Positions 38,069 to 56,748 of a stretch of 64,000 bases of DNA are shown here, piece after piece. Position numbers and translations under genes: made by a program. The notes beneath the pieces are model-generated. The model was not told the DNA's origin. It searched no databases and saw only the letters and a program-made list of their open reading frames with translations. Source of the stretch: Desertivirga arenae (lineage in GTDB: Bacteria > Bacteroidota > Bacteroidia > Sphingobacteriales > Sphingobacteriaceae). Numbering within the stretch: the first letter of the stretch is position 1; each line of letters begins with the position of its first letter. The stretch covers positions 186,001 to 250,000 of the forward strand of contig NZ_JAFEWE010000008.1 in the NCBI RefSeq assembly GCF_017355785.1, read 5' to 3'.

Positions 38069-40051
38069 ATGAAAAAGCTATTCCAGCTGCTTATAGCCCT
38101 GCTCTTACCATTAACCGTATTAGGACAAAAGGAGTATTTGTCAAGATTGACCATTAGCGGCGCAGTCTCCGAACTTGGAATCTCGCCCTCGGAAGAAATA
38201 TGGGTGGCAACACGGGCAGGCAATGTCTATTATACTGAGGAGCTTGGCGGCTTATGGAAAATAGGACCCTTTGGCACATTAGATTCCTATAATTCAGATC
38301 CTGGCCAGTCTTTCGAGAGACTAAATTTTTTCTCTGAAGATACATTGATGATTTCTGGCTTTATTCAGGAAGGCGGGAAGCAAGACTTCGTTATATGGTC
38401 AGGCAATCACGGTAAAACTTGGGAAAAGGTGGTGTTTGGAAAAAGCAGTTGGATTGATGCAGCATGCATCAATGGTAATGGCAAGGCGTGGATGAGTGGA
38501 AGCTCTCAGTTAATCTACTATACTGAAGATAGAGGCAAAACATGGACCTCCTTTAATAAGGTGGAACCAACCGGTAACTTACGTTTTTCGACAATTCATT
38601 TTGCAGAGGACGAGCGAACAGGTTTGTTCGGCTCAGGATGGAATGTATTGTATCGAACGGTTGACAATTGTAAGCATTGGGAAAAGTTGGCCACTCCATT
38701 GAGCCAAAAAAAATATGAACGGCTTTCGAAAAATGAACGTCTCGAGATTCGTAAAGCAAGAATTTTTGGTGATCATTATATTCTTAGTCAGCAAGGAAGA
38801 GTATTTATTACAAAATCCGATTCTATTGCATGGCAATACTTGCCGGAAGCCTCCGATTTTGAAGTGTCTGAAAATGAAGATTTGTATGTGGTCAATAAGG
38901 ATTTGAGTATAAGCATTTATGACAAGGCTTTTTCTAAAATCTGGAACTCAAGCGAAAGGATTGAGGCTCCTCACAGAGCCATTGGAATAAGAAACAACAG
39001 CCTCTTTGTATTAACCGGGGAGAGTATCTATAAAATAAGACCAGGAAATTTTAGAGCGGAACAATTGTTCACGGACGAGAAGCCAATCGATGAACCGGAT
39101 TTGAAGCTAGGGTATAAAGGTGAAGTATATGGATTTAGCAATAGAGATATCTTAAGGTTTGATACCAATAAAGGCAGATGGTTTCGCTTTATGACGCTTA
39201 ATTTCTCTATTGGAAATGCTTGTGTATTTGAAGATAAGGTATTATTGGCCGACGGAGGCTTGAACAAACAGTATGTAGTGGACTTAAAGCAGCGAGATGT
39301 AACCGAATATTCTCTCCCAGCAGAGCTATTCAGTGGTCTAACCGTAGACAAAGTATATTTTGAAAAAGGTAGTCAGGGCTGCTTTCATAATTCCAGTGCG
39401 GTAAAAGTATTCAAGAACTATGGAGACATGTTTAGTGCTGAAAAGAAAATTCCTTCTACCGAAGACCTGCCAATTCCTAACAGAAAGATTGAAACTAGTA
39501 AAATTGAACAGATTATTAGTGAACTTGACAGATCGAGGAATTCAAAAATTTCCCTACACGATTTAAAGATTACGAATACTGATATTATAGGCTATAAAAG
39601 GTTCATAGATAACGAGGAACAACGTATTAAGAAGTCGGGAATTGACCGTTTTGATTTTGAAAACCTTTACAATTTCCCTGGTGAAAACACGGATTTTAAC
39701 TTCTACAAAAGTATCGCCGATTCACTCTCTTCTATAAGTGAAGAAAATATCAATAATGCTTTTTCGCAATCCTATGGAAACTGGAGTACATCTACTGATT
39801 GGACTAGGATCACATTCCTTTTCCAAAATGGGAAAAAACTGGTGGTTCAAAACGCTGATGATAAGCCGAATTACCTGTACACCCCTTGGATTGTTGATTT
39901 TGACGGGCTTAAGTTTAAAAGTAACAGCATCAATTTTGGGCGTCAGCTAGATGAGATAACCGCTGGCCAATTTTTTAATAAGACTATCCGTGATAAGAAT
40001 TATGCTCTCTTTAAAATTGCAGATTATTTCTATAAAAGTCACCTTCATTAA
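38069..40051 (+). CDS. Secreted Ycf48/BNR-type beta-propeller protein
   Basis: The 660-residue protein has a signal peptide (about residues 1-19, ending LGQ). Its first half contains BNR/Ycf48-type repeats with the Asp-box style motif: 'NHGKTWEKV', 'EDRGKTWTSF' and 'VDNCKHWEKL'. Such repeats form a propeller. The last ~200 residues ('KISLHDLKITNTDIIGYKRF' onward) are a separate domain of unknown fold. It is exported, but binding partner and role are unknown. Function cannot be inferred from the small neighbouring genes. Confidence 0.78.
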   Translation: MKKLFQLLIALLLPLTVLGQKEYLSRLTISGAVSELGISPSEEIWVATRAGNVYYTEELGGLWKIGPFGTLDSYNSDPGQSFERLNFFSEDTLMISGFIQEGGKQDFVIWSGNHGKTWEKVVFGKSSWIDAACINGNGKAWMSGSSQLIYYTEDRGKTWTSFNKVEPTGNLRFSTIHFAEDERTGLFGSGWNVLYRTVDNCKHWEKLATPLSQKKYERLSKNERLEIRKARIFGDHYILSQQGRVFITKSDSIAWQYLPEASDFEVSENEDLYVVNKDLSISIYDKAFSKIWNSSERIEAPHRAIGIRNNSLFVLTGESIYKIRPGNFRAEQLFTDEKPIDEPDLKLGYKGEVYGFSNRDILRFDTNKGRWFRFMTLNFSIGNACVFEDKVLLADGGLNKQYVVDLKQRDVTEYSLPAELFSGLTVDKVYFEKGSQGCFHNSSAVKVFKNYGDMFSAEKKIPSTEDLPIPNRKIETSKIEQIISELDRSRNSKISLHDLKITNTDIIGYKRFIDNEEQRIKKSGIDRFDFENLYNFPGENTDFNFYKSIADSLSSISEENINNAFSQSYGNWSTSTDWTRITFLFQNGKKLVVQNADDKPNYLYTPWIVDFDGLKFKSNSINFGRQLDEITAGQFFNKTIRDKNYALFKIADYFYKSHLH

Positions 40052-41441: not shown

Positions 41442-44400
41442 ATGAATTCCATAGCATTCATTGATACTGAAATAGATCCGAAAACTTTCAAGATACTCGA
41501 TATCGGAGGTTTAAAGGCTGATGGCAGTACCTTTCATAAAGCATCGGTTCCAGACTTTATTCAATTCCTAAACGGAACCATGTACGTTTGCGGGCATAAC
41601 ATTATAAATCATGATATTAAGTATATAGGACGGGCACTTAATGAAGCCAAGATTTCTATCTATAGCGCCATTGATACCTTATTTCTCTCACCCCTGTTAT
41701 TTCCGTCCAGACCCTATCATGCCCTTCTGAAGGACGATAAACTGCAGACTGAAGACGCTAATAATCCCCTGAACGATGCGATTAAAGCAAGGGACTTGTT
41801 CTATGATGAAGTAGCGGCATTTCGTCAATTAGACGATAAACTTAAACGGATCTATTATTCTCTCTTGAATGACCAGAAAGAGTTTCGCTCGTTTTTTTCT
41901 TTCCTGGGGTATGTAAGTGAACCTATTGATACAGAGTTTCTCATCCGGCTGAAATTTGGAAACGAAATCTGTGAGCAGGTAGACCTGAAGATAATCATTT
42001 CAGAACATCCGGTAGAGTTATCCTACTGCTTGTCCCTTCTCAATTCCTTCATTACGAACAAGAAAACCTACTCCATCACCCCTCCATGGGTATTGAAGAA
42101 TTACCCAGAGGTGGAACGGATCATGTTTCGACTGCGGAATAAACCCTGTCTGAGGGGATGTTGGTATTGTGATCAGGCGCTGGACGTACATAAAGCGCTG
42201 AAACGTTTTTTCGGCTATGATGCTTACAGAAGCTACGGGGGAGAGCCTTTGCAGGAGAAGGCAGTAAAGGCTGCCGTTAACAATAAGTCCATTCTGGCAG
42301 TTTTTCCCACCGGTGGAGGAAAGTCGATCACCTTTCAGGTTCCTGCATTGATAGGTGGCGATAGTTCCAGAGGATTAACAGTGGTTATTTCTCCATTGCA
42401 ATCACTGATGAAGGATCAGGTGGATAATCTGGAGAGAGCTGGAATTACAGAAGCGGTAACCATCAATGGTTTGCTCGACCCAATAGAAAGGGCCAAATCG
42501 ATCGAGCGGGTTGAAGACGGCTCTGCTTGTATTCTTTACATTTCACCTGAATCACTACGCTCCAGGACAATAGAACGCTTATTGCTCGGGCGAAAGATCG
42601 TACGATTTGTGATAGATGAGGCGCACTGCTTTTCATCTTGGGGACAGGATTTCAGGGTTGACTACCTCTATATAGGCGACTTTATAAAATCGCTTCAGGA
42701 AAAGAAGAACCTCGAGGATGTTATTCCTGTGTCCTGCTTTACAGCAACTGCGAAGCAAAAAGTAATTGAAGATATCCGTGAATATTTTAAGGAGAAGCTT
42801 TCCCTTGAACTAGAACTGTTCACATCCAAGGCCTCACGGACAAACCTTCATTATAACGTTTTTGAGAAAGACAATGAAGATGAAAAGTATCAGGCTGTAA
42901 GAGACCTGATAGAAGAAAAGAACTGCCCCACCATCATTTATGTATCCAGAACACGGAAGGCATACTCTCTTGCTGAACGATTAAGCAGCGACGGCTTCAA
43001 CGCCAAACCTTACCACGGCAAAATGGAGGCTAAGGAAAAAACCGCCAATCAGAATGCTTTTATAGCTGGCGAAGTACCCATTATTGTGGCTACCTCAGCC
43101 TTCGGTATGGGGGTAGACAAGAAGGATGTTGGGCTGGTGATTCATTTCGAAATTTCCGACTCGCTGGAGAACTATGTGCAGGAAGCAGGCAGAGCCGGAC
43201 GTGATGAGAAGATGATAGCGGATTGTTTTGTGTTGTTTAACGAGGAAGACCTTAGCAAGCATTTCATACTTCTGAATCAAACCAAGCTTTCCCTTAAGGA
43301 AATTCAGCAAGTTTGGAAAGCGATCAAAGACATTACAAGACTTCGCTCTATAGTATCCAACTCGGCCTTAGAGATAGCGAGACAAGCGGGTTGGGATGAT
43401 AGCGTAGCAGAAATAGAGACAAGAGTAAAAACGGCAATTGCTGCTTTGGAAGATGCAGGGTATCTAAAGCGGGGCCAGAACATGCCTCGTGTTTTTGCTA
43501 ATAGTATTTTATCGAAGACCGCACAGGAAGCAATTGATAAGATCACCGCTTCGAAACGCTTTGACGAGAAGCAAAAGGAAAAAGCAATTAGAATTATCAA
43601 GAAGCTCTTTTCCAGTAAAAGCAGGAAGCAAGCAAGTGAGGAGTCTGCCGAGTCCAGGATCGATTATATCAGCGATCACCTCGGAATCGTAAAAGAAGAA
43701 GTGATTAAAATTGTAAATCTCCTTCGTGAAGAGAAGATTTTAGCAGATGCAAAAGATCTTACTGCTTTCATTAGGAGAGGTGAAAACAAAAACAAGTCCC
43801 TGAGCATCCTTGAGGCATTCGTCAAGGTCGAAAACTTTCTGCTTCCCTATATTCAGGATCAGGAAAAGGTCCTCCATATCAAAGAATTGAACGAGGACGC
43901 AGAGGCAGAAGGTTTTGGAGAGGTAAGCACGAACAGGATAAAAACCATCCTTAATTTCTGGACAATAAAGAATTGGATTAAGCGAAGGAACCTCGAACAC
44001 CATAAAAACCATATCGCTGTACTTTCTCTTCACCCAGAGGAAACACTGAAGAAAAAGCTGGAGAAAAGGCATGAGCTGGCTACGTTCCTGGTGGGGTATC
44101 TCTATGAAAAAAGTCGCCTGGGTTTATCAGAGGAGGATAAAAACAAGGAAGAGGTTCTGGTTGAGTTTTCGGTGCATGAATTAAAGGCAGCATTCGAACG
44201 TGAATTAAGACTTTTTGAAGTGCAGGTATCGGTGGAGGATATTGAAGATGCGCTTTTCTACCTCTCAAAAATTGAAGCCCTTAAAATTGAGGGTGGTTTT
44301 CTGGTAGTTTATAACAGCCTCACCATCGAACGACTGGAACAGGACAACAAGGTACGTTACAAGGTAGAGGATTATAAAAAGCTCAACCAATTTTACGAAA

Positions 44401-46256
44401 GCAAGGTTCAGCAGATCCATATAGTAGGGGAGTATGCTAAGCAGATGATCAGCGACTACAAAAACGCGCTGCAGTTTGTGGAAGATTATTTCCAGTTAAA
44501 TTACCAGGCCTTCCTTAGTAAATACTTTAAAGGCAGTCGCCAGGATGAAATCCGCCGCAATGTTACTCCCGCTAAGTTCAAACAGCTTTTCGGTGAACTA
44601 TCTCCCACTCAATTAAAGATCATCAACGATAACAATTCCAGGTACATTGTGGTAGCAGCAGGACCTGGGAGCGGAAAAACAAGAGTGCTGGTGCACAAGC
44701 TTGCGTCATTACTTTTAATGGAAGATGTAAAGCATGAACAATTGCTGATGCTCACCTTTTCCCGGGCCGCAGTAACCGAATTCAAGAAGCGCTTACTAAA
44801 GTTCATCGGCAACGCGGCAAATTTCATCGAGATAAAAACATTTCATTCCTACTGCTTTGATCTGCTGGGTAAGGTGGGGAGCCTGCAAAAGTCGGATGTG
44901 ATATTGAAAAAGACGATCGAGATGATCAGAAATAAAGAGGTGGAAGCAAGCCGGATTACAAAAACCGTGTTAGTGATCGACGAAGCACAGGACATGGATG
45001 AGGATGAGTTCCATCTCGTGAAGGCCCTGATGGAGCAGAATGAAGAGATGAGGGTAATTGCCGTAGGGGACGATGACCAGAACATCTACGAATTCAGAGG
45101 CGCCAGCTCCCAGTTTCTGGAACTGTTCCTCAAGAGTAAGCAGTCGGTTAAATACGAGCTTGTTGAGAATTACAGAAGTAAGAGCAATCTCGTTGAGTTT
45201 ACCAATCAGTTTGTCAGCAGGATACAGCACCGCCTTAAAGAGACGCCAGTGATCGCAAAACAAAACGATCTTGGGACAATAAAAGTGGTGCAGCATCATG
45301 GCGGAAACCTAATTACACCACTAGTTCGAGACTTGGTAGGTGCCGAGTTAAAAGGCACAACCTGTGTCCTTACCAAGACCAACGAAGAGGCCCTGCAAAT
45401 CGCGGGACTGCTTCTTAAAAATAACATCCCTGCGAAACTGATCCAGTCGAACGATAGCTTTAGTTTATACAATCTCCTGGAGGTCCGGTCCTTCCTGCAA
45501 TCGTTAAACCTTGACGACGAAACTTATATTATCCCGGATGAGGACTGGGAACGTGCGAAGCGGGAGTTGGTGAACCGGTATCAAAACAGCTCTAAGTTGG
45601 AAGTCTGCAAGAATATCATCAAGGATTTTGAAGCAACCAATCCGAAGAGAAAGTACAAAACAGACCTGGAGGTTTTTATCCGGGAATCGAGGTTGGAAGA
45701 TTTCTTTAATGAGAAGGGAGATACGGTCTTTGTTTCAACCATTCATAAAGCGAAGGGGAAAGAATTTGATCAGGTGTTCCTGATGCTCGAGAATTTCGGT
45801 GTAACAACCGACGCTGCTAAACGGCAGTTATATGTTGCCATGACTCGTGCGAAACAGAATCTTAGTATTCACCTTAATGGACGTTTCCTTGATAACCTTA
45901 CAGTTGATAACCTGGAGAGGGTAGATGATAGGGAAAGGTATTCACCGCCTGTTGAACTAACCATGCAGCTTGGCTTTAAAGATATCTGGCTGGATTACTT
46001 TATTAATAGACAGAAACTTGTTTCTCAGCTGACTAGTGGGGAGTTATTGACGGTAAGCGGCAATGAGTGTTTTAATTCAATAGGGGAGTGTGTTTTGAAA
46101 TTCTCTCAAAAGTTCCTGGAGCAAATGGAGGGAATGAAAGAGAAGAATTACGTTCTCAAAAGTGCCAGGGTGAATTTTATTGTTTATTGGCTGAAGGAGG
46201 GGGCGGAGAAGGAGGTGAAGGTGGTTTTGCCTGAGTTGGGGTTTGAGAAGGGGTAG
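41442..46256 (+). CDS. Exonuclease-RecQ-UvrD triple-fusion helicase/nuclease
   Basis: This 1604-residue protein joins three nucleic-acid enzymes. Residues about 1-130 are a DnaQ-like 3'-5' exonuclease (D8 and E10 in 'FIDTEID', then 'CGHNIINHD' and 'NPLNDAIKARDLF'). In the last motif the usual His appears replaced by Asn. Residues about 265-640 are a RecQ helicase: Walker A 'FPTGGGKS' (about 288), DEAH 'VIDEAHCFSSWGQDFR' (about 390), 'GMGVDKKDVGLVIHF' and 'QEAGRAGRDE'. Residues about 650-1050 are helical and winged-helix-like. Residues about 1060-1500 are a UvrD/Rep helicase: 'AAGPGSGKTRVLVHKL' (about 1074), 'VIDEAQDMDEDEF', 'VGDDDQNIYEFRGA' and 'YVAMTRAKQNL'. It sits directly before hsdR on the same strand (132-base gap), so a role in DNA defence or repair linked to restriction is likely. 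Confidence 0.93.
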   Translation: MNSIAFIDTEIDPKTFKILDIGGLKADGSTFHKASVPDFIQFLNGTMYVCGHNIINHDIKYIGRALNEAKISIYSAIDTLFLSPLLFPSRPYHALLKDDKLQTEDANNPLNDAIKARDLFYDEVAAFRQLDDKLKRIYYSLLNDQKEFRSFFSFLGYVSEPIDTEFLIRLKFGNEICEQVDLKIIISEHPVELSYCLSLLNSFITNKKTYSITPPWVLKNYPEVERIMFRLRNKPCLRGCWYCDQALDVHKALKRFFGYDAYRSYGGEPLQEKAVKAAVNNKSILAVFPTGGGKSITFQVPALIGGDSSRGLTVVISPLQSLMKDQVDNLERAGITEAVTINGLLDPIERAKSIERVEDGSACILYISPESLRSRTIERLLLGRKIVRFVIDEAHCFSSWGQDFRVDYLYIGDFIKSLQEKKNLEDVIPVSCFTATAKQKVIEDIREYFKEKLSLELELFTSKASRTNLHYNVFEKDNEDEKYQAVRDLIEEKNCPTIIYVSRTRKAYSLAERLSSDGFNAKPYHGKMEAKEKTANQNAFIAGEVPIIVATSAFGMGVDKKDVGLVIHFEISDSLENYVQEAGRAGRDEKMIADCFVLFNEEDLSKHFILLNQTKLSLKEIQQVWKAIKDITRLRSIVSNSALEIARQAGWDDSVAEIETRVKTAIAALEDAGYLKRGQNMPRVFANSILSKTAQEAIDKITASKRFDEKQKEKAIRIIKKLFSSKSRKQASEESAESRIDYISDHLGIVKEEVIKIVNLLREEKILADAKDLTAFIRRGENKNKSLSILEAFVKVENFLLPYIQDQEKVLHIKELNEDAEAEGFGEVSTNRIKTILNFWTIKNWIKRRNLEHHKNHIAVLSLHPEETLKKKLEKRHELATFLVGYLYEKSRLGLSEEDKNKEEVLVEFSVHELKAAFERELRLFEVQVSVEDIEDALFYLSKIEALKIEGGFLVVYNSLTIERLEQDNKVRYKVEDYKKLNQFYESKVQQIHIVGEYAKQMISDYKNALQFVEDYFQLNYQAFLSKYFKGSRQDEIRRNVTPAKFKQLFGELSPTQLKIINDNNSRYIVVAAGPGSGKTRVLVHKLASLLLMEDVKHEQLLMLTFSRAAVTEFKKRLLKFIGNAANFIEIKTFHSYCFDLLGKVGSLQKSDVILKKTIEMIRNKEVEASRITKTVLVIDEAQDMDEDEFHLVKALMEQNEEMRVIAVGDDDQNIYEFRGASSQFLELFLKSKQSVKYELVENYRSKSNLVEFTNQFVSRIQHRLKETPVIAKQNDLGTIKVVQHHGGNLITPLVRDLVGAELKGTTCVLTKTNEEALQIAGLLLKNNIPAKLIQSNDSFSLYNLLEVRSFLQSLNLDDETYIIPDEDWERAKRELVNRYQNSSKLEVCKNIIKDFEATNPKRKYKTDLEVFIRESRLEDFFNEKGDTVFVSTIHKAKGKEFDQVFLMLENFGVTTDAAKRQLYVAMTRAKQNLSIHLNGRFLDNLTVDNLERVDDRERYSPPVELTMQLGFKDIWLDYFINRQKLVSQLTSGELLTVSGNECFNSIGECVLKFSQKFLEQMEGMKEKNYVLKSARVNFIVYWLKEGAEKEVKVVLPELGFEKG

Positions 46257-46388: not shown

Positions 46389-49300
46389 ATGGCATTTAAT
46401 GAAGATTCCCGGGTTAAGATTCCTGCTTTATTGCACTTAGTCAGGCTTGGCTACACCTATATATCTAGAAAACAGCAGATAAGAAATGCTGATACCAATA
46501 TCTTTCCTGAGATTTTTATTGATAGTATTCAAAGAATCAACAAAGGAATCTCTGAGCCAGAGAGCAAAAGACTGTTGGAAGAGGTCTCACTTAAACTTGA
46601 TTTTGAAGATTTAGGAAAAGATTTCTATAAGTCCTTAGTGAGCCAGTCTGGTGTAAGGTTGATTGACTTTACTGATTTTAGCAAAAATAGTTTTCACGTT
46701 ACGACAGAATTAAGTTGTATCAATGGCGATGAGGAGTTCCGTCCGGATATTACAATTCTGATTAACGGAATGCCTTTGGTCTTTATCGAGGTTAAAAAGC
46801 CAAACAACAAGGAGGGGATTTTAGCAGAGCGCAATCGCATCAACGACCGTTATAAAAACAGAAAGTTCAGGCGTTTTGCCAATATCACGCAGTTGATGTT
46901 GTTCTCTAACAATATGCCTTATGAGGACGGTGTAATTGAACCACTACAAGGCGCCTATTATGCAACATCTGCATACAATGATTTGCAGTTTAATTATTTC
47001 AGAGAAGAGGAAAACCTTAATTTATCCTATTTGCTGGCTCCGGAAAGCGATGAAGTAGAAAACCTGATTTTAAAGGATAACAATATCATCGCAATTAAAC
47101 ATTCACCCGAGTTTATTACTAACAAGCATTTCCTTACACCCACCAATACCATTTTAACTTCTTTGCTTAGCAAGGATAGGTTAGCGTTTCTTTTAAAGTA
47201 CGCTATTGCATATGTTGATGAAGAGGTAAAAGGTAAAATAGTAAGGCAGAAACATATCATGCGTTATCCGCAAATCTTTGCTACAAAGGCCATTGAAAAT
47301 AAACTCAACGAAGGCATTAATAAAGGAATTATTTGGCATACACAGGGGAGTGGTAAAACGGCGCTGGCTTACTATAACGTTAAGTTTTTGACCGACTATT
47401 ACCAGAAGCGTAACATTATCCCTAAGTTCTATTTTATTGTCGACCGTATTGATTTGGCGATTCAGGCCAGTACAGAATTTGGCAATAGAGGTCTTGTGGT
47501 AAACCGGGTAGATTCCCGAACTGACTTTCTAGAAGATATCAAAAAGGTTAGTGTAGTACATAACAGTTCAGGCGACAGGGAAATTTCGGTAGTAAACATT
47601 CAAAAATTTACTGAAGAAACCGTAGCCATAAAAGATCTGGCCTACGACATCAATATCCAACGGATTTATTTTATCGATGAAGCGCACCGTGGATATAATC
47701 CCAAAGGAACGGCTTTAGTTAATCTGTTGCGCTCTGATAATGATGCTATAAAGATTGCATTGACCGGTACACCTTTACTGAGAGAGGTTGCGAAGGAATA
47801 CGATAGTAAGGCCTTATTTGGCGAGTATATCCACAAGTATTATTATAACATGTCCATCGCAGATGGATACACTTTACGTTTGATCAGGGAAGGTATTGAT
47901 ACCACGTACAAGATGCAAATGAAGGAAGTGCTGGAACAGATTAAACTGTTGCAGGGTGACATTCCTAAAAGTCAGGTATTTGCACACCCCAAATTTGCAA
48001 GACCTATGCTGGATTATATCATCAAGGATTTACTTCAGTTTAGAAAGGCTGAGGGAGATGCTAGTCTTGGTGCTATGGTGGTTTGTGATACCAGCGATCA
48101 GGCCAAAACTCTGTTCGATTATTTCGAGGAATTGTATGGTGTGCAGGAAGTAAAGTCATTAAACATAGCTGCAGAGCCCGAAGGAAAATATCAAAAGATA
48201 AGCTCTCAGCTGACAGGCGCATTGATACTTCATGATGTTAATTCTAAACATGACCGTAAAGAGCAGGTAAAACAGTTTAAAGCCGGAGAGATAGATATTC
48301 TTTTCGTTTTTAATATGCTTCTTACCGGTTTTGATGCTAAGCGTTTAAAGAAATTGTATTTGGCAAGGGTTGTAAAAGATCATAACCTTTTGCAGACCTT
48401 AACCCGCGTAAACCGCCCGTATAAAAAATACAAATACGGCTATGTGGTCGACTTTGCCGACATTACCAGTGCCTTCAGGGACACCAACGATAATTACTTT
48501 AAAGAATTACAGGGCGAATTGGGCGATGAAATGGCCAATTACACCAACCTATTTAAATCCGCCGAGGAAATTGATGGGGAGATTCAGGAGATTAAAGAAA
48601 AGCTCTTCCATTTTGATGCCATTAACGCCGAGATATTTAGTCAGCAGGTAAGCGAGATTAAAGATAAAATGGATTTGCTGGAGCTGATTAAAGTGCTAAG
48701 CAGTGCCAAGGAGCTCAAGAACATTATCCGCCTGAAAGGATTGGACGAGCAATTAGACAAGCTGAATTTCTTTAAGCTCAATCAACTATTAAGTGTTGCA
48801 CAAGCCCAGCTGGATAAACTCAATCTAATTGACAATATCAATAGCGAGGCGGATAGCACTAATCTACTCAATGCAGCTTTGGAAGATGTTATTTTCCTGT
48901 TTACTAAGGTATCCGAGGAAGAATTGATCCTCGCCGACCAGCTTCGCGGGCAGTTGAAACGCACAAGGGAAGCCTTGCTTTATAATTTCGACCAAAAAGA
49001 TCCCGAGTTTATTTCCTTGCGGGAAGAGTTGGAGCGCATATTTAAGGAGAAGAATCTGGGCGAAGTTGACCAAGAAGATATGCGGGATAATATTCTCCTG
49101 CTGCAGTCCATTTACGACCGGGTAACCGAGCTGAACCGTAAAAATAACTTGCTGAAAGCGAAGTACGATCACGACGAAAAATATGCCCGCCTACACAAGC
49201 GCTTGGAAGAGAATAAAGGCATTTCTGCTAATAAAATACAGCTCCATGCAGCACTGATGAATGTTAAACAGCAAACAGACGAGCAATTAACAAACAATAA

Positions 49301-49463
49301 AAATATTCTGGATAACGAAGCCTTTTTCAACCGTTACTTGATGAATTTGGTAGCTAACGAATTTGTAAAGAACCAGAAACTTAAGTTAGATTTTAATACC
49401 ACAAAAAGCATCAACACTCTTATTGCAGGCGAATACTTGCAACAGTATAATAATTATTTATAA
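46389..49463 (+). CDS. hsdR: Type I restriction enzyme, R subunit
   Basis: The 1024-residue protein is the motor and nuclease subunit. The N-terminal nuclease has the PD-(D/E)xK motif in 'FRPDITILINGMPLVFIEVK' (about residues 117-136). The SF2 motor has Walker A 'HTQGSGKTALAYY' (about 316), DEAH 'IYFIDEAHRGYNP', 'LTGTPLL' and 'LTRVNRPYKKYKYGYVVDFA'. The C-terminal part (about 750-1024) is helical and should contact the methylase. The first base of hsdM follows its stop codon directly, showing an R-M-S operon. Confidence 0.96.
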   Translation: MAFNEDSRVKIPALLHLVRLGYTYISRKQQIRNADTNIFPEIFIDSIQRINKGISEPESKRLLEEVSLKLDFEDLGKDFYKSLVSQSGVRLIDFTDFSKNSFHVTTELSCINGDEEFRPDITILINGMPLVFIEVKKPNNKEGILAERNRINDRYKNRKFRRFANITQLMLFSNNMPYEDGVIEPLQGAYYATSAYNDLQFNYFREEENLNLSYLLAPESDEVENLILKDNNIIAIKHSPEFITNKHFLTPTNTILTSLLSKDRLAFLLKYAIAYVDEEVKGKIVRQKHIMRYPQIFATKAIENKLNEGINKGIIWHTQGSGKTALAYYNVKFLTDYYQKRNIIPKFYFIVDRIDLAIQASTEFGNRGLVVNRVDSRTDFLEDIKKVSVVHNSSGDREISVVNIQKFTEETVAIKDLAYDINIQRIYFIDEAHRGYNPKGTALVNLLRSDNDAIKIALTGTPLLREVAKEYDSKALFGEYIHKYYYNMSIADGYTLRLIREGIDTTYKMQMKEVLEQIKLLQGDIPKSQVFAHPKFARPMLDYIIKDLLQFRKAEGDASLGAMVVCDTSDQAKTLFDYFEELYGVQEVKSLNIAAEPEGKYQKISSQLTGALILHDVNSKHDRKEQVKQFKAGEIDILFVFNMLLTGFDAKRLKKLYLARVVKDHNLLQTLTRVNRPYKKYKYGYVVDFADITSAFRDTNDNYFKELQGELGDEMANYTNLFKSAEEIDGEIQEIKEKLFHFDAINAEIFSQQVSEIKDKMDLLELIKVLSSAKELKNIIRLKGLDEQLDKLNFFKLNQLLSVAQAQLDKLNLIDNINSEADSTNLLNAALEDVIFLFTKVSEEELILADQLRGQLKRTREALLYNFDQKDPEFISLREELERIFKEKNLGEVDQEDMRDNILLLQSIYDRVTELNRKNNLLKAKYDHDEKYARLHKRLEENKGISANKIQLHAALMNVKQQTDEQLTNNKNILDNEAFFNRYLMNLVANEFVKNQKLKLDFNTTKSINTLIAGEYLQQYNNYL

Positions 49464-51086
49464 ATGACCGATCTAACATTCATTCAAAAAACCAAGCAGC
49501 TAATTGATAGCCTAAAAAGCGTGTGTGCAAACTATGGTTTAGGTAATGATGGCAACGAGTTCAAAATTATTACGCAGGTTTTTCTGTATAAGTTTATGAA
49601 TGATAAATTTGCCTACGAAGCCAAAAAGCTGGAAGACTTTGACTTAGCTGTAGCGGATAATTTTCAGGAAGCATTAGAAGCACTTGATGATGAAAAATAT
49701 AATTTCCTGCTTGCTTTTATAAATGCCAATACCCCTCAATTATATCCACACCAGACGATTACTTATTTACACAACAAGCAGAATACAAATGATTTCGCCA
49801 AGCTCTTTGATGATACACTTCGCGAGATAAGCATCAATAACGCAGAGATCTACTCAGTTAAATCGGCTACGGGTGCAAAAGATAAAATGTTTGATGAACT
49901 TAGCCAGTTTATCAGTGATGCATCGCAACGCGATGCTTTTTGTAAAGCACTTATTAGCAAGCTTTTCGAGTTTAGTTTTGAAGGAATGTTTGGCGAGAAA
50001 TACGATTTCTTCGCCACCATTTTCGAATACCTGATTAAAGATTACAATACCGATAGTGGTGGCAAATATGCCGAATACTATACGCCCCATGCCGTAGCTC
50101 GTATTATGGCTTCCATTATGGTTAACGATAAACCGAAAGGGGTTAAAGTGTATGACCCCAGTGCAGGTTCTGGCACTCTATTGATGAACATTGCTCATGC
50201 TATCGGCGAAGATAATTGCAGTATTTATAGTGAAGATATTTCGCAGAAGTCCAGCAATATGCTACGCTTAAACTTAGTGCTGAATAACTTAAGTCATAGT
50301 ATTCCACATATTATTAAAGGCAATACCATTTTAGAGCCTTATTACCGCGAGGAGAAATTTGACTATATCGTATCCAATCCTCCCTTCAAGCTTGATTTCT
50401 CTGATTTTAGCGCTGCCCTCGATAAAGACATTAATAAAACACGCTTTTTTGCCGGCATACCGAATGTTCCTAAAGCTAAGAAAGAGAGCATGGCTATTTA
50501 CCTGCTGTTCATACAGCACATCATGTACAGCTTAAGTGCAAAAGGCAAAGCAGCTATTGTAGTACCGACTGGTTTTATCACAGCGCAAAGTGGTATTGAG
50601 CGTAAAATACGGGAAGCTATGATTGAGCGAAAGCTGTTGCGGGGAGTGGTAAGTATGCCAAGTAACATTTTTGCGAGTACGGGTACAAACGTGAGCGTTC
50701 TGTTTTTGGATAATCGGGCAGATGCTGAGCATATCGTATTGGTTGATGCCAGTAAGTTGGGCACTACTGTAAAGGAAGGTAAAAACCAACGTACGGTGTT
50801 GACCTCAGCAGAAGAGCAACGTATTATTGATGCAATGAACGATAAGTTGGCGGTCGATGAGTTTAGTGTAGTGGTTTCTGCTGAAGATGTTAAAAAAAAG
50901 AATTATTCTTTTTCGGCGGGGCAGTACTTTGAGGTGAAGATTGATTATGTGGATATTACAGAGGAGGAGTTTAAGGAGAAGATGGAAAGCTTTGAGGAAA
51001 GACTTGGTAAACTATTTACTAAAGGGCAGCTTTTGGATCGTGAAATTGAGAATCACTTGAAGTATCTGACTTATGAAGCTAATTAA
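49464..51086 (+). CDS. hsdM: Type I restriction-modification methylase, M subunit
   Basis: The 540-residue subunit has an N-terminal helical HsdM domain (about residues 1-170). An N6-adenine methyltransferase domain follows, with the AdoMet site 'VYDPSAGSGTLLMN' (about 230) and the catalytic NPPF in 'VSNPPFKLDF'. With HsdS it methylates the target sequence and with HsdR forms the restriction complex. It starts immediately after hsdR and overlaps hsdS by 14 bases. The length and motifs are normal. Confidence 0.97.
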   Translation: MTDLTFIQKTKQLIDSLKSVCANYGLGNDGNEFKIITQVFLYKFMNDKFAYEAKKLEDFDLAVADNFQEALEALDDEKYNFLLAFINANTPQLYPHQTITYLHNKQNTNDFAKLFDDTLREISINNAEIYSVKSATGAKDKMFDELSQFISDASQRDAFCKALISKLFEFSFEGMFGEKYDFFATIFEYLIKDYNTDSGGKYAEYYTPHAVARIMASIMVNDKPKGVKVYDPSAGSGTLLMNIAHAIGEDNCSIYSEDISQKSSNMLRLNLVLNNLSHSIPHIIKGNTILEPYYREEKFDYIVSNPPFKLDFSDFSAALDKDINKTRFFAGIPNVPKAKKESMAIYLLFIQHIMYSLSAKGKAAIVVPTGFITAQSGIERKIREAMIERKLLRGVVSMPSNIFASTGTNVSVLFLDNRADAEHIVLVDASKLGTTVKEGKNQRTVLTSAEEQRIIDAMNDKLAVDEFSVVVSAEDVKKKNYSFSAGQYFEVKIDYVDITEEEFKEKMESFEERLGKLFTKGQLLDREIENHLKYLTYEAN

Positions 51087-52410
51087 ATTAAGTAAAATAG
51101 CTGATGTTATTACTGGCTTTCCATTTAAAGGAGAACTATATTCTGATGTTGGAATTAGAACCGTAAGGGGAGAAAATGTAACTGAAGGTAGCTTAAGATG
51201 GGATACAATTAAATGTTGGAATCAGAAATTTGACAAACAGTCGCATTATTTGTTGCAAAATAATGATGTCGTTATTGGAATGGACGGCTCCAAAGTTGGT
51301 AAAAACAAAGCGAGAATTAAATCAGGAGATTTACCATTACTTTTAGCCCAACGGGTTGCATGTGTTAGGGCTAAAAACGGTAACGACCAAATATTTTTAT
51401 ATTATCTTATAAATAATCCACGGTTTGAAGAATATGTTTTTAAAACTCAAACAGGCTCATCTGTTCCCCATATTAGCAAAACTCAAATTGAAGATTTTAA
51501 GGTAGTTGATTTCGATCCAAAAACTCAACACAAAATTGCAAACGTTCTTTCCGCTTTAGACGATAAAATAGAACTAAACAACAAAATCAATGCAGAGTTA
51601 GAGGCAATGGCCAAAACGCGCTATGATTATTGGTTTGTGCAGTTTGATTTTCCTAATGCAGAAGGTAAGCCATATAAATCTTCCGGTGGTGAAATGGTTT
51701 ATAATGAGGTGTTGAAAAGGGAGATTCCGAAGGGGTGGGAGGTGAAAAGTTTGGAACAATGTCTGGAGAACATCATCGATTACAGGGGAAAAACTCCAAA
51801 GAAGTTAGGAGGAGACTGGTCTGAAAACAGGAACGATATCATTGCCCTGTCAGCAAAACACGTGAAAAAAGGTAAGCTTGTTAACTTAGATGATGCAAAT
51901 AGACTAGACGAGAATTTGTATAAACTATGGATGAAACAGCCGCTTAGAGAAGGCGACATATTACTAACATCGGAAGCGCCTTGCGGAGAGTTTTTTTACA
52001 TGATAGGTAATACAAAATATTGTCTAAGTCAACGGTTGTTTGCCTTAAGAGCTGATGCTCTAATAATCAAGCATTCGGTATTGTATTATGAGCTGTCTTC
52101 TGGTACAGGCTATTCTCAAATTTTAGGAAAAGTTAGTGGAAGTACTGTTTTTGGGATCAGACAAGACGAGCTTCGAACAGTAAATATTCAAGTCCCGTCC
52201 TCTGAAACTCAAAATGCATTCCACGAATTTGTAATGCCGATATATAAGAAGATTAGAAACAACGATTATCAAAATCAAGAACTGGCAGCCTTAAGAGATT
52301 GGTTATTGCCTATGCTAATGAATGGACAGGTAAAGGTTTCTGAGGTTTATAAAGAAGTGGAGGAGAAGTTGGCGATGGTTGCGGAGGGAGAAGTAGCATA
52401 TGAAAAATAG
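51073..52410 (+). CDS. hsdS: Type I restriction-modification specificity subunit
   Basis: The 445-residue subunit has two target-recognition domains. The first (about residues 1-150) ends in the conserved helix 'VLSALDDKIELNNKINAELE'. The second (about 210-385) ends with 'ELAALRDWLLPMLMNGQVKV'. The halves read different parts of a split target and set the specificity of both methylase and nuclease. The two domains look dissimilar, so the target should be asymmetric. It overlaps the hsdM end. Confidence 0.95.
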   Translation: MKLIKLSKIADVITGFPFKGELYSDVGIRTVRGENVTEGSLRWDTIKCWNQKFDKQSHYLLQNNDVVIGMDGSKVGKNKARIKSGDLPLLLAQRVACVRAKNGNDQIFLYYLINNPRFEEYVFKTQTGSSVPHISKTQIEDFKVVDFDPKTQHKIANVLSALDDKIELNNKINAELEAMAKTRYDYWFVQFDFPNAEGKPYKSSGGEMVYNEVLKREIPKGWEVKSLEQCLENIIDYRGKTPKKLGGDWSENRNDIIALSAKHVKKGKLVNLDDANRLDENLYKLWMKQPLREGDILLTSEAPCGEFFYMIGNTKYCLSQRLFALRADALIIKHSVLYYELSSGTGYSQILGKVSGSTVFGIRQDELRTVNIQVPSSETQNAFHEFVMPIYKKIRNNDYQNQELAALRDWLLPMLMNGQVKVSEVYKEVEEKLAMVAEGEVAYEK

Positions 52411-52414
52411 TTAA

Positions 52415-52570
52415 ATGAATTATAAGAAAACTAAACCAGAAATCACTCTTGAGGAATTTTTAGTTTTAATTAAAGAATTAAAGGAGTTTAAAAGCCTCAA
52501 AGGAAATCAATATGAGATAGTTTCTATCAATGATTTAATTCTCAGCTTTATTCGAAAGTCGACAGGTTAA
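52415..52570 (+). CDS. Small ORF after hsdS
   Basis: This 51-residue frame encodes an acidic/basic helical peptide ('ITLEEFLVLIKELKEFKSLK') and starts 4 bases after the hsdS stop. The amphipathic character and tight spacing suggest it is translated, but no family is recognised. It may be a remnant. Confidence 0.4.
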   Translation: MNYKKTKPEITLEEFLVLIKELKEFKSLKGNQYEIVSINDLILSFIRKSTG

Positions 52571-52579
52571 AGCTGGAGA

Positions 52580-52714
52580 ATGGATTTGAGAGGTGTTTTA
52601 AAAGCCTATAAAGACTTGACGGATTTTAAAACGGAAAATTTTAGACCATATTTGCCTCGTAAGCACTCGCCTGCATTGGGACTATTGTTTCATTTGGGTT
52701 TATTAGAAAAGTAG
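52580..52714 (+). CDS. Second small ORF, possibly a gene remnant
   Basis: The 44-residue frame ends 'RKHSPALGLLFHLGLLEK', which reads like the C-terminal winged-helix piece of a larger protein. It starts 9 bases after the previous small ORF and ends 11 bases before the HEPN-like gene. It could be a short accessory protein or a fragment. Confidence 0.35.
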   Translation: MDLRGVLKAYKDLTDFKTENFRPYLPRKHSPALGLLFHLGLLEK

Positions 52715-52725
52715 ATTAATTGCTT

Positions 52726-53424
52726 ATGGAAGATTTTTATATTGGCCTTAATCGCGAAATCCAAAGGGTTTCAGATGAATTTAATATAAAAAACCTGATT
52801 TCTATTCAGGACTATTATAACGAAAATGATTATTGGCCGTGTTTAGCGAACTTTAGTTTTTTCAACAAACTATTTGATGTACATCATTACCACTTTCTTT
52901 ATGAAATCCAGGGTTTAAGTAGCCAAATTCATTTTGGTTTAGCAAATTGTTTTCTGTTAAGAGATAAAATAAGTCAGAGAAGAGGTAGACCCAATATTTT
53001 CAATCATCGATATACTTTCATGATTGAGTCTACCATTCATTGCGTCTACGCTTATTGGAATAGGGTAGGGCTCGTTTTGAATACTTACTTAATAAAACCT
53101 AAGGATCTTAAAAGAGTCTATTTTTCCGGCGTCGTTCATCAACTCCTTACAGATTATCCTCAATTAGCTGAAAATGAAGATTTCGTTTGGATTACTAATG
53201 TGAAAAATAGCCTGGAAGCTCTAAATAGAAATGAATTTGCTCACAATAATTCTCTGATTATGCAAGATTTCCTGCCGGAATACAAGGAGGACGAAGGACA
53301 AATGGATTTACTGGCCTTCCCTGAATTGTTATTAACGCATAATAGATATATTGTGGATGACATTTTTAATCTCGTCGAACTTATTGGCGAACTTGAACAA
53401 ATAATATCAATACCTAAAGTTTAA
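52726..53424 (+). CDS. HEPN-like protein (Cthe_2314-type), putative RNase
   Basis: The 232-residue, mainly helical protein contains the HEPN motif Rx4H as RNEFAH (R168 and H173). Earlier helices ('IESTIHCVYAYWNRVGLVLN', 'VYFSGVVHQLL') have the pattern of Cthe_2314-type HEPN proteins. Many HEPN proteins are RNases used in defence or toxin systems. Its stop overlaps the McrB start by one base, and it follows hsdS, so it is embedded between two restriction systems. An RNase role is an inference. Confidence 0.72.
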   Translation: MEDFYIGLNREIQRVSDEFNIKNLISIQDYYNENDYWPCLANFSFFNKLFDVHHYHFLYEIQGLSSQIHFGLANCFLLRDKISQRRGRPNIFNHRYTFMIESTIHCVYAYWNRVGLVLNTYLIKPKDLKRVYFSGVVHQLLTDYPQLAENEDFVWITNVKNSLEALNRNEFAHNNSLIMQDFLPEYKEDEGQMDLLAFPELLLTHNRYIVDDIFNLVELIGELEQIISIPKV

Positions 53425-55361
53425 TGGCAAACTGGCATATACAACTACATCCGAATGATATTGAAAATTGGAGTAAGGATGATATTAAAAATATAGTTGA
53501 AAAAACAGGTTATATAGGAATTGGAAATTGGGATAAAGGGAAAAATTTAATAACACAATTCAAAAATAGCTTAGTAAAAGGCGATTATGTGGTTATCAGA
53601 CACAAAGGTCCTTTGGGTATCGTGAAGATTATTGGAGAATTAGAAGAAGTAGCTGAAGCAAACTTAAATTGGGATTTGGATTGGTTTGCCTTTAGAAGAA
53701 AAGTTGAACTTATTGAATGGTTTGATAAAGATGTTGAACGAGAAATAGGGGCATCTATCGACGGTATATATCAGACCACAGCACTAGCAAACGCTCGCAA
53801 AAGTAATTTTATTAACAGTTGGGTAAAAAGAACTCACAGAAGAATGGAAGAGAAAAAAAAGTCAGAAATTCAGAGGCTTCTTGAATACAAAAAGCAAATT
53901 ATTTTGCAGGGGCCTCCCGGGACAGGTAAAACAAGGCTAGCGAAGGAGATTTCAGAAGCATTGACAAGTCCTAAAAATTCAATTTATACAAAGGCTTTTA
54001 TCAAAGAAAGAATCAAAGTTGGCGATATTGTTAATGGAAGAAAAAATACCACAGCGTATCCCGTATTAGAAATTAAGGATAATACAATTCTTCTTGGAAC
54101 ATCCGGCGATGAAAGAGAACCCACTTATGATCAAATAATAGAATCACTAATTGGTAAGTTATGGACTAAGTCAAGTGGAGATCGAAAAAGTAATACCCTT
54201 TCTTATGCTGATTCAATTGCTAAGTTTATTTATGCAAATGAGAACAGCGAGGGTTTTGATTACTCATTGATAAAATTAGTTCAATTCCATCCTTCTTATA
54301 CATATGAAGATTTTGTGAGGGGAATTGTTTCTGTTCCAAATGAAAGCGGGGAAGGTATTCTGTATAAAGCTGAAGATAAAACACTAGGAGAATTTGCTAA
54401 TCTTGCATTAGATAATTATTTACGTAGCAAGGGGCAAAGTAAGCATGATTCAACTTTTCAAAATAAGCTTGCTGAATTAATTGAGACTGTGCGCATTAAA
54501 ATGGACGCTGGTGAAGAATACTCTTTTGGAGAGAAAAGCACTGCCCAAATTATTGCAATAAAAGAAGATGGCTTTCTGTATAATTTCCCCCTAAGGCAGG
54601 AAATTAAATACAAGTTGCTTTTTGATGATATTGAAAAAGTATATAGCGCAAGGCAGAAAATAAATAAGCCAATTGATTTAAGAGATATTGAGTCGCAAAT
54701 TGGGCTCACCATGAAAGGTAAATATCCATATTACTACATGATTTTGCGCAAATTGGAGAAGCTAAATGTGGAGAATGTAACTCTTGCAAAATCATCAGAG
54801 CTTAAGAATTTTGTGATAATTATTGACGAAATTAATCGGGCTAATCTCTCTTCAGTGCTGGGAGAACTGATTTATGCTTTGGAATATCGTGGAGAGGAGG
54901 TTGAAAGTGTGTATAAGGTGGGTGGAGATGGTAAACTAACCCTTCCCCCGAATTTATATATTATCGGCACCATGAATACCGCCGATAGGAGCGTTGGACA
55001 CATAGATTATGCAATTAGAAGAAGATTCGCTTTTGTAGATGTATTGCCAGAAGACCTAAGCAACAAATTAGGAGAAGATTTTAAAACTGAGCTATTTAAT
55101 AAAGTTGCGGAGTTATTTACAGAGGCACATATTTCCCCGGAGTTCAAACCTAAAGACGTTCAGTTAGGGCATAGCTATTTTATACAGCAATACGAAAAGG
55201 ATGATGCCGGAGAAAACATAAAGGAGAAACCATATGATTTTAAACTTCGCTTAAAATATGAGATTGTTCCAATTTTGAATGAATATTTGAATGATGGAGT
55301 ATTTAAAAACGATCCTGTGACCATAGAAAAGATCAAGGCAATAGAAGATTTTAAGCTATAA
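53424..55361 (+). CDS. mcrB: McrB-like AAA+ GTPase with an N-terminal DNA-reader-like domain
   Basis: The 645-residue protein has an AAA+ motor of the McrB type: Walker A 'LQGPPGTGKTRLAKEI' (about 162), Walker B 'FVIIIDEINRAN', and the McrB signature 'GTMNTADRSVGHIDYAIRRR'. Residues about 1-105 form a small beta-rich domain ('WHIQLHPNDIENW', 'GYIGIGNWDKG', 'VKGDYVVIRHKGPLGIVKII') that looks like an EVE/PUA-type reader of modified bases. With McrC it would cut DNA bearing modified or foreign marks. McrC follows after 7 bases. Confidence 0.9.
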   Translation: MANWHIQLHPNDIENWSKDDIKNIVEKTGYIGIGNWDKGKNLITQFKNSLVKGDYVVIRHKGPLGIVKIIGELEEVAEANLNWDLDWFAFRRKVELIEWFDKDVEREIGASIDGIYQTTALANARKSNFINSWVKRTHRRMEEKKKSEIQRLLEYKKQIILQGPPGTGKTRLAKEISEALTSPKNSIYTKAFIKERIKVGDIVNGRKNTTAYPVLEIKDNTILLGTSGDEREPTYDQIIESLIGKLWTKSSGDRKSNTLSYADSIAKFIYANENSEGFDYSLIKLVQFHPSYTYEDFVRGIVSVPNESGEGILYKAEDKTLGEFANLALDNYLRSKGQSKHDSTFQNKLAELIETVRIKMDAGEEYSFGEKSTAQIIAIKEDGFLYNFPLRQEIKYKLLFDDIEKVYSARQKINKPIDLRDIESQIGLTMKGKYPYYYMILRKLEKLNVENVTLAKSSELKNFVIIIDEINRANLSSVLGELIYALEYRGEEVESVYKVGGDGKLTLPPNLYIIGTMNTADRSVGHIDYAIRRRFAFVDVLPEDLSNKLGEDFKTELFNKVAELFTEAHISPEFKPKDVQLGHSYFIQQYEKDDAGENIKEKPYDFKLRLKYEIVPILNEYLNDGVFKNDPVTIEKIKAIEDFKL

Positions 55362-55368
55362 AAGCATA

Positions 55369-56748
55369 ATGGGAATTGTTTTATCAGAACATTGTGAAGT
55401 TGACCTTTTTCTGAAGATAAAGGACTTCAAACGAGCTTCATTGGCTTCTCCACGGCAATTTCCATCGAAGAAAGGAATTAAATATTGCTATGTCATTTCT
55501 GAAAGCAATACTTCTTGCTGGCTTAAAGCAGACTACTACATAGGTGTAGATTGGATTATCAAAGGAGAGCATTTTATACAGGTAAAACCAAAGCTGAATA
55601 CCAAGATCATTGAACGATTTGAGGAAGAAGTAACAAAAGATGACGATGTTTTATCTGGTAATGAAGTTGAGGACGAACCTACCTTTGACGAGATAAAAGA
55701 TTTTAAAGAGTTAAACTTCCTTAAAATTTTACTTGATGCGTTTCAACATTCTGAGATAACAAGTTATACCGACAATCTTGTGCTTATTGATTGGGAAGCA
55801 CCGCAAATCGAAATCAAGCAAAGAGATGATGCATTAACGCCTTTTCTGGTGGTGAAATTTTTAAATACACTGAAGCATTTGGTTAGAAAGGGATTAAAAA
55901 AGTCGTACTATAAAGTTCAGGAGAATTTAAACAACCGAGTGAAAGGGAAGATTTTAGTCGGTGCGAATATTAAACAGAATGTCTTAAAAAATCGCTTAAC
56001 CAAAACCTACTGTGAGTACCAGCCGTTTGGCATAGATCATCAGGAAAACCGGTTTTTAAAGAAGGTGCTTTATTTTTGCAGCAACTACGTGCACCAATAT
56101 GTGGGCATTTGGGGTGCTGAGCAAAAGCAAAGTTTAGAACATCTCATCAGTTACTGCAAACCCGCATTTGAATTAGTTAGTGATGATATTGAAAACACTA
56201 CTTTGAAAAACATCAAGCATAATCCTTTTTTTCAAGAATATAAAGAGGCCATAAAAATTGGAGGTTATATTTTAAAGCGCTTTGCTTATAACATCAGCAA
56301 CACTTCAGAAAGTGAAACGATCAAAACTCCTCCGTTTTGGATAGATATGCCGAAATTGTTTGAGCTGTATGTTTACCATCATTTGCATAAGTCATTTCCG
56401 AATAATGTGGAATTTCAATTCGCCACCTATGGGAACGTGCTGGATTTTTTGATTACTGCAAAAGATTACGAGATGGTGGTGGATGCGAAATACAAAATGC
56501 ACTATCGATCAAGCCATATTCATGAGGATATTCGGCAGGTGGCTGGGTACGCCAGGTTGAATAAGGTGTATGAGGCCTTGAAAAAACCTTTGGACTCAAG
56601 GGATATGATTAAGTGTTTGATTATTTATCCGTGTACTAATGATGTTAAGAAGGATGAGGAAATTTGTTTAGATCTAACGAAGAAGTTGCCTATTCAGGCG
56701 TACAGGAAAGTTTTTAAAATAGGAATTCCGATGCCTTTTATAACTTAA
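55369..56748 (+). CDS. mcrC: McrC-like restriction nuclease subunit
   Basis: The 459-residue protein is the nuclease partner of McrB. The C-terminal PD-(D/E)xK core is seen in 'NVLDFLITAKDYEMVVDAKY' (about residues 360-380, Asp and DxK) followed by 'HEDIRQVAGYARL'. The N-terminal ~150 residues are typical of McrC proteins that contact the McrB ring ('SCWLKADYYIGVDWIIKGEH'). There is no intact gene for the next 1.1 kb, so it closes this operon. Confidence 0.9.
   Translation: MGIVLSEHCEVDLFLKIKDFKRASLASPRQFPSKKGIKYCYVISESNTSCWLKADYYIGVDWIIKGEHFIQVKPKLNTKIIERFEEEVTKDDDVLSGNEVEDEPTFDEIKDFKELNFLKILLDAFQHSEITSYTDNLVLIDWEAPQIEIKQRDDALTPFLVVKFLNTLKHLVRKGLKKSYYKVQENLNNRVKGKILVGANIKQNVLKNRLTKTYCEYQPFGIDHQENRFLKKVLYFCSNYVHQYVGIWGAEQKQSLEHLISYCKPAFELVSDDIENTTLKNIKHNPFFQEYKEAIKIGGYILKRFAYNISNTSESETIKTPPFWIDMPKLFELYVYHHLHKSFPNNVEFQFATYGNVLDFLITAKDYEMVVDAKYKMHYRSSHIHEDIRQVAGYARLNKVYEALKKPLDSRDMIKCLIIYPCTNDVKKDEEICLDLTKKLPIQAYRKVFKIGIPMPFIT

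Follow-up and report, generated by a model that had tools for sequence, protein, structure and literature searches.

A patchily distributed gene fusing a DEDD-type exonuclease domain with RecQ- and UvrD-type helicases, found beside a type I restriction operon in Desertivirga arenae

The window analysed here, a stretch of 64,000 nucleotides from Desertivirga arenae, encodes on its plus strand a single protein of 1604 amino acids (41442..46256; ATG at 41442, stop at 46256, frame uninterrupted) in which a predicted exonuclease domain is followed by two helicases of different superfamilies. A DEDD-type exonuclease domain with added helices is assigned to residues 1–245 (41442..42176), a RecQ-type SF2 helicase core to residues 251–620 (42192..43301), a winged-helix-like stretch to residues 621–1046 (43302..44579), a UvrD/Rep-type SF1 helicase core to residues 1047–1490 (44580..45911), and a C-terminal tail, where no best Pfam stretch falls, to residues 1491–1604 (45912..46253). 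Upstream of the fusion lies a gene for a 660-aa protein with VPS10/BNR-type repeats (38069–40051). Flank synteny was compared among three genomes of the genus, the source genome included; at E ≤ 1e-60 neither of the other two yielded a match to this gene, nor more generally to either of the two flanking genes tried. Downstream, also on the plus strand, one unit encodes hsdR, hsdM and hsdS (46389..52410; recognized by Pfam, NCBIfam and PADLOC) and another encodes McrB-like and McrC proteins (53424..56748; profile matches). Between hsdS and the McrB-like gene there is a 234-aa frame (52720–53424) that has no Pfam or PADLOC match.

The RecQ-type core was recognized by Pfam DEAD (best stretch 269–444) and Helicase_C (481–587), both above the curated cut-offs, by matches to solved RecQ chains and by the NCBIfam RecQ family model (recQ_fam, TIGR00614) with 273.4 bits against a cut-off of 219.8. 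Membership in the canonical RecQ group (TIGR01389) was rejected, as this model scored 313.6 bits against an equivalog cut-off of 640.2, with model positions 3–349 of 591 aligned. Neither RQC nor HRDC gave a Pfam match in the fusion at E ≤ 1. The model of residues 600–1060 (pLDDT 82, pTM 0.52) shows a number of helical units that resemble winged helices, and a fold search with this middle region returned weak winged-helix-type matches, none of them at E ≤ 0.001. The second motor belongs to the UvrD/Rep (SF1A) helicases, with UvrD-helicase matching from residue 1054 and UvrD_C to residue 1477, and with PF00580 at 113.5 bits and PF13361 at 81.1 bits, all over the curated cut-offs. The triple fusion of a DnaQ-like exonuclease, RecQ and UvrD proposed in the first-pass annotation is thus borne out, by Pfam and NCBIfam for the motors and by a structural model and profile–profile comparison for the N-terminal domain. 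Its reading of the helicase motifs as intact also holds: in an alignment of 101 sequences (less than 95% identical, duplicates dropped, the window's copy included; 40 positions tallied), the tallied motif residues of each motor are kept in 100–101 of 101 rows.

Residues 1–250 of the window's protein gave no match to any Pfam family at E ≤ 1. When the N-terminal domains of 44 members were scanned singly, nine matched DNA_pol_B_exo1 (best E 5e-4) and two matched RNase_T (best E 0.018). An AlphaFold2 model of the domain, made from a 44-sequence alignment, had a mean pLDDT of 92. In a Foldseek search, two solved structures matched at E ≤ 0.001, both of them Staphylococcus aureus DinG (E 1.6e-4 and 2.6e-4), with low TM-scores of 0.40–0.43 and an rmsd of about 7; exonucleases of polymerases and oligoribonucleases followed with weaker E values. 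A viral fold library gave two matches at E ≤ 0.001, which were phage DNA polymerases with low TM-scores. In one single hhalign comparison, the domain was aligned to an RNase_T profile of 11 proteins (11 of 13 matches found in the source genome and four related genomes) with a probability of 95% and an E value of 2e-8. The register of this alignment places D8-x-E10, GHN..D58 and D112 on the canonical motifs and N107 opposite the His, and a weak profile match to solved chains named 'exodeoxyribonuclease III' (best E 0.018) gave the same register. Judged from the predicted ribonuclease-H-like fold and the metal site (D-x-E, ..N....D, ...D), residues 1–245 are a DEDD exonuclease domain of the DnaQ-like group, with Exo I at D8-x-E10 (41463..41471), Exo II at G51-H-N...D58 (41592..41615) and Exo III at N107-N-P-x-x-D112 (41760..41777).

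The residues of this site are nearly invariant. D8, E10, G51, H52, N53, D58, D78, H93 and K97 are unchanged in all 99 rows that have the position, and D112 is Asp in 99 of 100. N107 stands five residues before D112, the last catalytic Asp, at the place of the catalytic His of DEDDh enzymes, and is Asn in 97 of 100 members (Ser in two, Lys in one). The domain falls into neither the DEDDh subclass, which has His at –5 from the last Asp, nor the DEDDy subclass, which has Tyr at –4: it has Asn at –5 in 97/100 and Asn or Asp at –4 in 100/100. An Asn where a catalytic His is usual had been remarked on in the window's own copy; alignment of the third motif across homologues confirms it and indicates that Asn at the DnaQ catalytic-His position is a trait of the family. 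Since the acidic residues are kept and the replacement of His by Asn is family-wide, the family has retained the metal site and lost the general-base His, a loss that could leave the nuclease weak or dead. H93 lies near N107 in a segment with poor model quality (residues 91–110, pLDDT 55–67) and may be a displaced catalytic His, a candidate that, given the poor modelling of this segment, could be either within or beyond reach of the active site.

The loss of the general-base His in 97 of 100 members would also be explained if the N-terminal domain were no longer a nuclease and acted as a sensor of 3' ends or single strands that gates the two motors. A precedent is pExoDinG, a helicase that carries an inactivated exonuclease domain (PMC11981726), and for this pseudo-exonuclease domain such a role has been proposed. 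However, pExoDinG, according to the same paper, has lost two of the acidic residues, whereas the fusion keeps D8, E10 and D58 in 99/99 rows and D112 in 99/100, and the invariant His93 and Lys97 could stand in for the missing His. We consider it quite unlikely that the domain has given up catalysis altogether. One copy, on a contig labelled viral (L119:10001-14860), has Lys for N107, Cys for D112 and a longer loop before the motif. These changes may have inactivated its nuclease, while both its motors are intact at the tallied motif residues.

Between the exonuclease and RecQ parts lie three cysteines, C236, C240 and C243 (42147..42170), each of which is kept in 99 of 101 rows; a Scytonema copy has none of the three and an Aliarcobacter copy does not have the last two. 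It is possible that this linker binds a metal. A profile of the exonuclease domain, run against 296 genomes of the phylum, gave 13 strong frames, every one of them a fusion of 1600–1731 aa, and three weak matches (E 7e-7 to 5e-5) in frames of 709–722 aa, which we took for putative polymerases. With strong matches confined to fusions, no free-standing close relative of the domain was seen in these 296 genomes.

The fusion is neither a sequencing error nor a local accident, as full-length relatives exist at 85% down to 28% identity. A full-length frame of 1463–1791 aa is present in 102 of the 116 loci examined (L009–L124). Of the 14 others, nine stop at or near a contig end and five are interrupted (L022 and L023 being one gene, and L040 also reaching a contig end). 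A conserved split into two genes was rejected for the interrupted copies G130, L040, L064 and L070, which are broken at differing places and are accordingly read as products of decay or error. Full-length frames occur in Bacteroidota, Bacillota, Spirochaetota, Fibrobacterota, Aminicenantes, Pseudomonadota, Campylobacterota and Cyanobacteriota, on genome contigs, plasmids and contigs labelled viral, and the architecture is retained across phyla at 28–36% identity. The near-invariance of the acidic set and of the motif residues of both motors suggests that all three parts are under selection. The family is real, old and widespread, and it is unnamed: public records label its members 'RecQ family ATP-dependent DNA helicase'.

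At the same time, the gene is accessory and patchily distributed. Including the source genome, it was found in 15 of 201 genomes of the Sphingobacteriaceae (protein search, E ≤ 1e-100; one of the 15 copies is in two pieces) and in 15 of 392 genomes of the phylum (profile search, E ≤ 1e-250). A genome collection yielded at least 580 stretches whose products are related to some part of the query, a number that does not count fusions because other RecQ or UvrD proteins are included; the best 80 of them (L031–L110), a set biased to close relatives, come from Bacteroidota, Bacillota, Spirochaetota, Fibrobacterota and Aminicenantes. Among plasmids, 11 of the 436 matching records have one place that covers at least 80% of the query, and the hosts include Bacteroides, Aliarcobacter, Rhizobium, Thiothrix, Cereibacter, Allochromatium and Scytonema. 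None of the 109 matching phage records has a place covering 80% of the query. Twelve contigs labelled viral carry a full-length frame, and integrases, invertases, methyltransferases and ParB-like proteins lead the best 25 of 138 PHROGs families matched by their neighbours (146 of 154 neighbour frames used). As terminase appears just once among these best 25, we do not call these contigs phages. A quick tree, the details of which are unsafe owing to long branches, has two large groups, one made up of the plasmid and viral-contig copies of Pseudomonadota and cyanobacteria and the other of the remainder, with Bacteroidota and Bacillota partly intermixed.

The fusion ends 132 bases before hsdR, which has the same orientation, and the plus strand of this gap contains no terminator-like site, so the earlier remark that it runs straight into hsdR is correct. 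The cassette that follows (46389–56748) has the order hsdR-hsdM-hsdS-ORF-McrB-McrC. The same hsdRMS-mcrBC cassette was identified in a genome of another genus (G070), where it is located 0.93 Mb from that genome's own fusion. Identity to the window is 82.5% for hsdR, 89.1% for hsdM, 33% for the hsdS-like gene, 44% for McrB and 47% for McrC; an hsdS merely 33% identical next to R and M genes at 82–89% is as expected for swapped specificity. In the place of the 234-aa frame, G070 has a frame of 368 aa with no detectable similarity to it at E 1e-8. The G070 fusion is 73.8% identical to that of the window and has other neighbours. The closest copy found, 85% identical (G031, locus L086, a Pedobacter record), is in a genome with no HSDR_N match at E ≤ 1e-5, and none of the window's other genes beyond 30 kb gave a match at E 1e-8 in the 10 kb around this copy.

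These comparisons bear on the proposal of the first-pass annotation that the fusion processes DNA ends made by the adjacent restriction enzyme, that is, that it is a partner of the type I system which finishes off HsdR-cut DNA. In addition to the short, terminator-free gap in the window, two further genomes show comparable arrangements. In G232 (L243:9436-16740) a 780-aa hsdM-type gene of another lineage follows the fusion by about 160 bases on the same strand, a second case of a fusion heading a type I cluster, and in G533 an hsdR gene lies 5 kb downstream. However, a fixed tie is rejected by G070, which carries the same cassette far from its fusion, and is further contradicted by the lack of an HSDR_N match in G031 and by the 24 of 29 genomes in which no hsdR/M or McrBC match was seen within 20 kb of the fusion. 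The conserved hsd linkage expected of an accessory subunit of a type I system was not found. Nor did another constant neighbour emerge when 1233 frames around 89 loci (70 genome contigs, 7 plasmids and 12 contigs labelled viral) were clustered: the largest cluster spans 7 loci and the next one 6, an ABC-type ATPase and HipA, respectively, from one tested member of each. A dedicated partnership with the restriction system is thus very improbable, and the place of the fusion beside it in the window looks incidental.

Genes of this kind are nonetheless more frequent near the fusion than near other RecQ genes. Of 29 fusions, 5 have restriction, modification or McrBC domains within 20 kb, compared with none of the 66 other RecQ loci in the same 29 genomes (Fisher p 0.002; 4/28, p 0.007 without the window's own copy). 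The corresponding counts were 3/29 and 0/66 within 5 kb (p 0.026; 0.086 without the own copy), 4/29 and 0/66 within 10 kb (p 0.007; 0.024) and 6/29 and 0/66 within 35 kb (p 0.0005; 0.002), all these p values being optimistic because the genomes are related. For HSDR_N alone, matches to which include short proteins other than HsdR, 4 cases were observed within 20 kb against 0.5 expected from a rate estimate (p 0.002), or 3 without the own copy (p 0.014). The other 24 copies had no hsdR/M or McrBC match within 20 kb, although nearby genes may have been missed, since in at least 8 of the 29 cases the contig begins no more than 20 kb before the copy. Among the flanks of the 89 loci, many of them limited by contig ends, annotation, BLAST or clustering revealed hsd-type genes at L029, L071 and L099 and McrB-type genes at L045, L087 and L099; HsdR assignments from clustering at L062 and L082 were rejected because Pfam identified these proteins as PLD/ResIII helicases. 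According to annotation, the Allochromatium plasmid copy has hsdRMS alongside. The Scytonema plasmid copy (L030:1-11224) is accompanied by a DISARM-like run of annotated helicase-like, hypothetical and phospholipase D genes. Immediate neighbours of the fusion matched 51 PADLOC models (130 of 131 frames used, one 2844-aa frame left out) as opposed to 26 for 130 of 138 control frames from hand-chosen regions of eight genomes (E ≤ 1e-20), a tally that shows little since it counts models and not proteins. A Pfam tally of immediate neighbours, again by models and for the leading 25 families, was no more telling.

The association with restriction genes is thus modest. The absence of a fixed partner, combined with restriction genes being commoner nearby, suggests that the fusion favours the same regions and is not part of one system. 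For the other proposal of the first-pass annotation, an independent anti-phage enzyme, the outcome is mixed: the link to defence is weakened by a survey in which 24 of 29 homologues lie away from restriction genes, while the excess over other RecQ loci (5/29 against 0/66) still stands.

A somewhat unlikely alternative is that the fusion is a DNA-repair or replication-restart enzyme for the upkeep of plasmids and islands, a WRN-like protein whose UvrD motor clears protein or rescues forks. WRN, too, combines an exonuclease and a RecQ helicase in a single chain, and it is among the solved relatives of the RecQ part; one plasmid copy adjoins parAB near rep, and other copies lie near HipA-type toxin genes; and no widespread defence partner was seen. 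With such neighbours, plasmid upkeep fits as well as defence. However, the fusion was not found in more than 90% of the relatives searched, restriction genes lie closer to it than to other RecQ genes, and the source genome is already equipped with three further genes of the RecQ family (E ≤ 1e-60).

Our main reading, to which we assign a probability of about 0.5, is that the fusion is a mobile accessory enzyme, a single-gene helicase-exonuclease that acts on DNA ends, gaps or forks, probably against foreign DNA. Its accessory spread, its carriage on plasmids and its being closer to restriction genes than other RecQ loci support a role in conflict; the 24 of 29 copies without restriction genes within 20 kb and the weak excess at 5 kb (p 0.09 without the own copy) count against it. 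As to whether such an enzyme defends against foreign DNA or repairs DNA for the benefit of the element that carries it, we prefer defence, at about even odds.

The catalysis, polarity, substrate and conflict role that we infer for the fusion can be outlined as follows. Two ATP-driven motors, RecQ (SF2) and UvrD (SF1A), strung on one chain via the winged-helix-like stretch, would open DNA or travel along it, starting at an end, a gap or a fork. The DEDD domain at the N-terminus would trim the exposed 3' strand by means of its four acidic residues and metal ions, with the Asn, or the invariant His93 from a displaced position, replacing the usual general-base His. RecQ motors move in the 3'-to-5' direction. 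The same direction is reported for UvrD motors (PMC10568477) and for DEDD nucleases (PMC11981726), and it is from these directions that trimming or sensing of a freed 3' end by the N-terminal domain is deduced. The enzyme would probably be used against incoming or competing DNA, phage or plasmid, and not in housekeeping repair. A bolder version, which we put forward tentatively, holds that the fusion is an unnamed one-gene immune enzyme found in many phyla, a RecBCD-like end processor assembled from unrelated parts, with a new subclass of exonuclease, DEDDn, that senses or trims foreign 3' ends.

A full-text literature search, judged mainly by titles and the beginnings of abstracts and with subscription journals mostly outside its range, found no description of the fusion and no paper using the term DEDDn together with exonuclease. 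The generic 'RecQ family' label in the records makes its spread on plasmids and islands easy to overlook. A chain that unites two helicase engines of different superfamilies with a nuclease, and is conserved at less than 30% identity across phyla, is unusual among designs for processing DNA ends. With the near-invariant Asn one can test cleanly either how a DEDD nuclease acts when it has no general-base His or whether a nuclease has become a sensor.

Several known systems resemble the fusion in part. The RecQ-type core is shared with DpdF of the Dpd 7-deazaguanine defence system, the best PADLOC model for the fusion, although DpdF membership is rejected at 217.8 bits against a cut-off of 550 (NF041063), with the RecQ part alone matching. 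The UvrD-like core matches the models of GajB and of the DRT-associated UvrD helicases (RTasHel). In Gabija, GajB is paired with GajA (PMC10568477). The window's copy is not a Gabija system, as its adjacent genes encode the BNR/VPS10-type protein and HsdR, with no GajA. RecBCD and AddAB combine motors with a nuclease to process DNA ends, and the resemblance is one of working principle: their nuclease has another fold, and the fusion has RecQ instead of RecD and consists of one chain. In WRN, as in the fusion, a DEDD exonuclease precedes a RecQ helicase on one chain, and WRN chains match the fusion from residue 252 to residues 614–621. The WRN exonuclease is of the DEDDy type, and WRN is not known to have a second, UvrD motor; the fusion has neither the Tyr nor, at E ≤ 1, a Pfam match to RQC or HRDC, and is thus not a WRN-type RecQ. 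In ExoDinG, likewise, a helicase is preceded by a DEDD exonuclease at the N-terminus, and S. aureus DinG is the best solved-structure match of the fusion's N-terminal domain; ExoDinG is not known to have an SF1 motor. Its helicase is of the DinG type and its exonuclease a DEDDh enzyme with the His present (PMC11981726), in contrast to the RecQ and UvrD motors and the Asn of the fusion. By virtue of joining an exonuclease and a helicase on one chain, WRN and ExoDinG are the nearest working analogues of the fusion.
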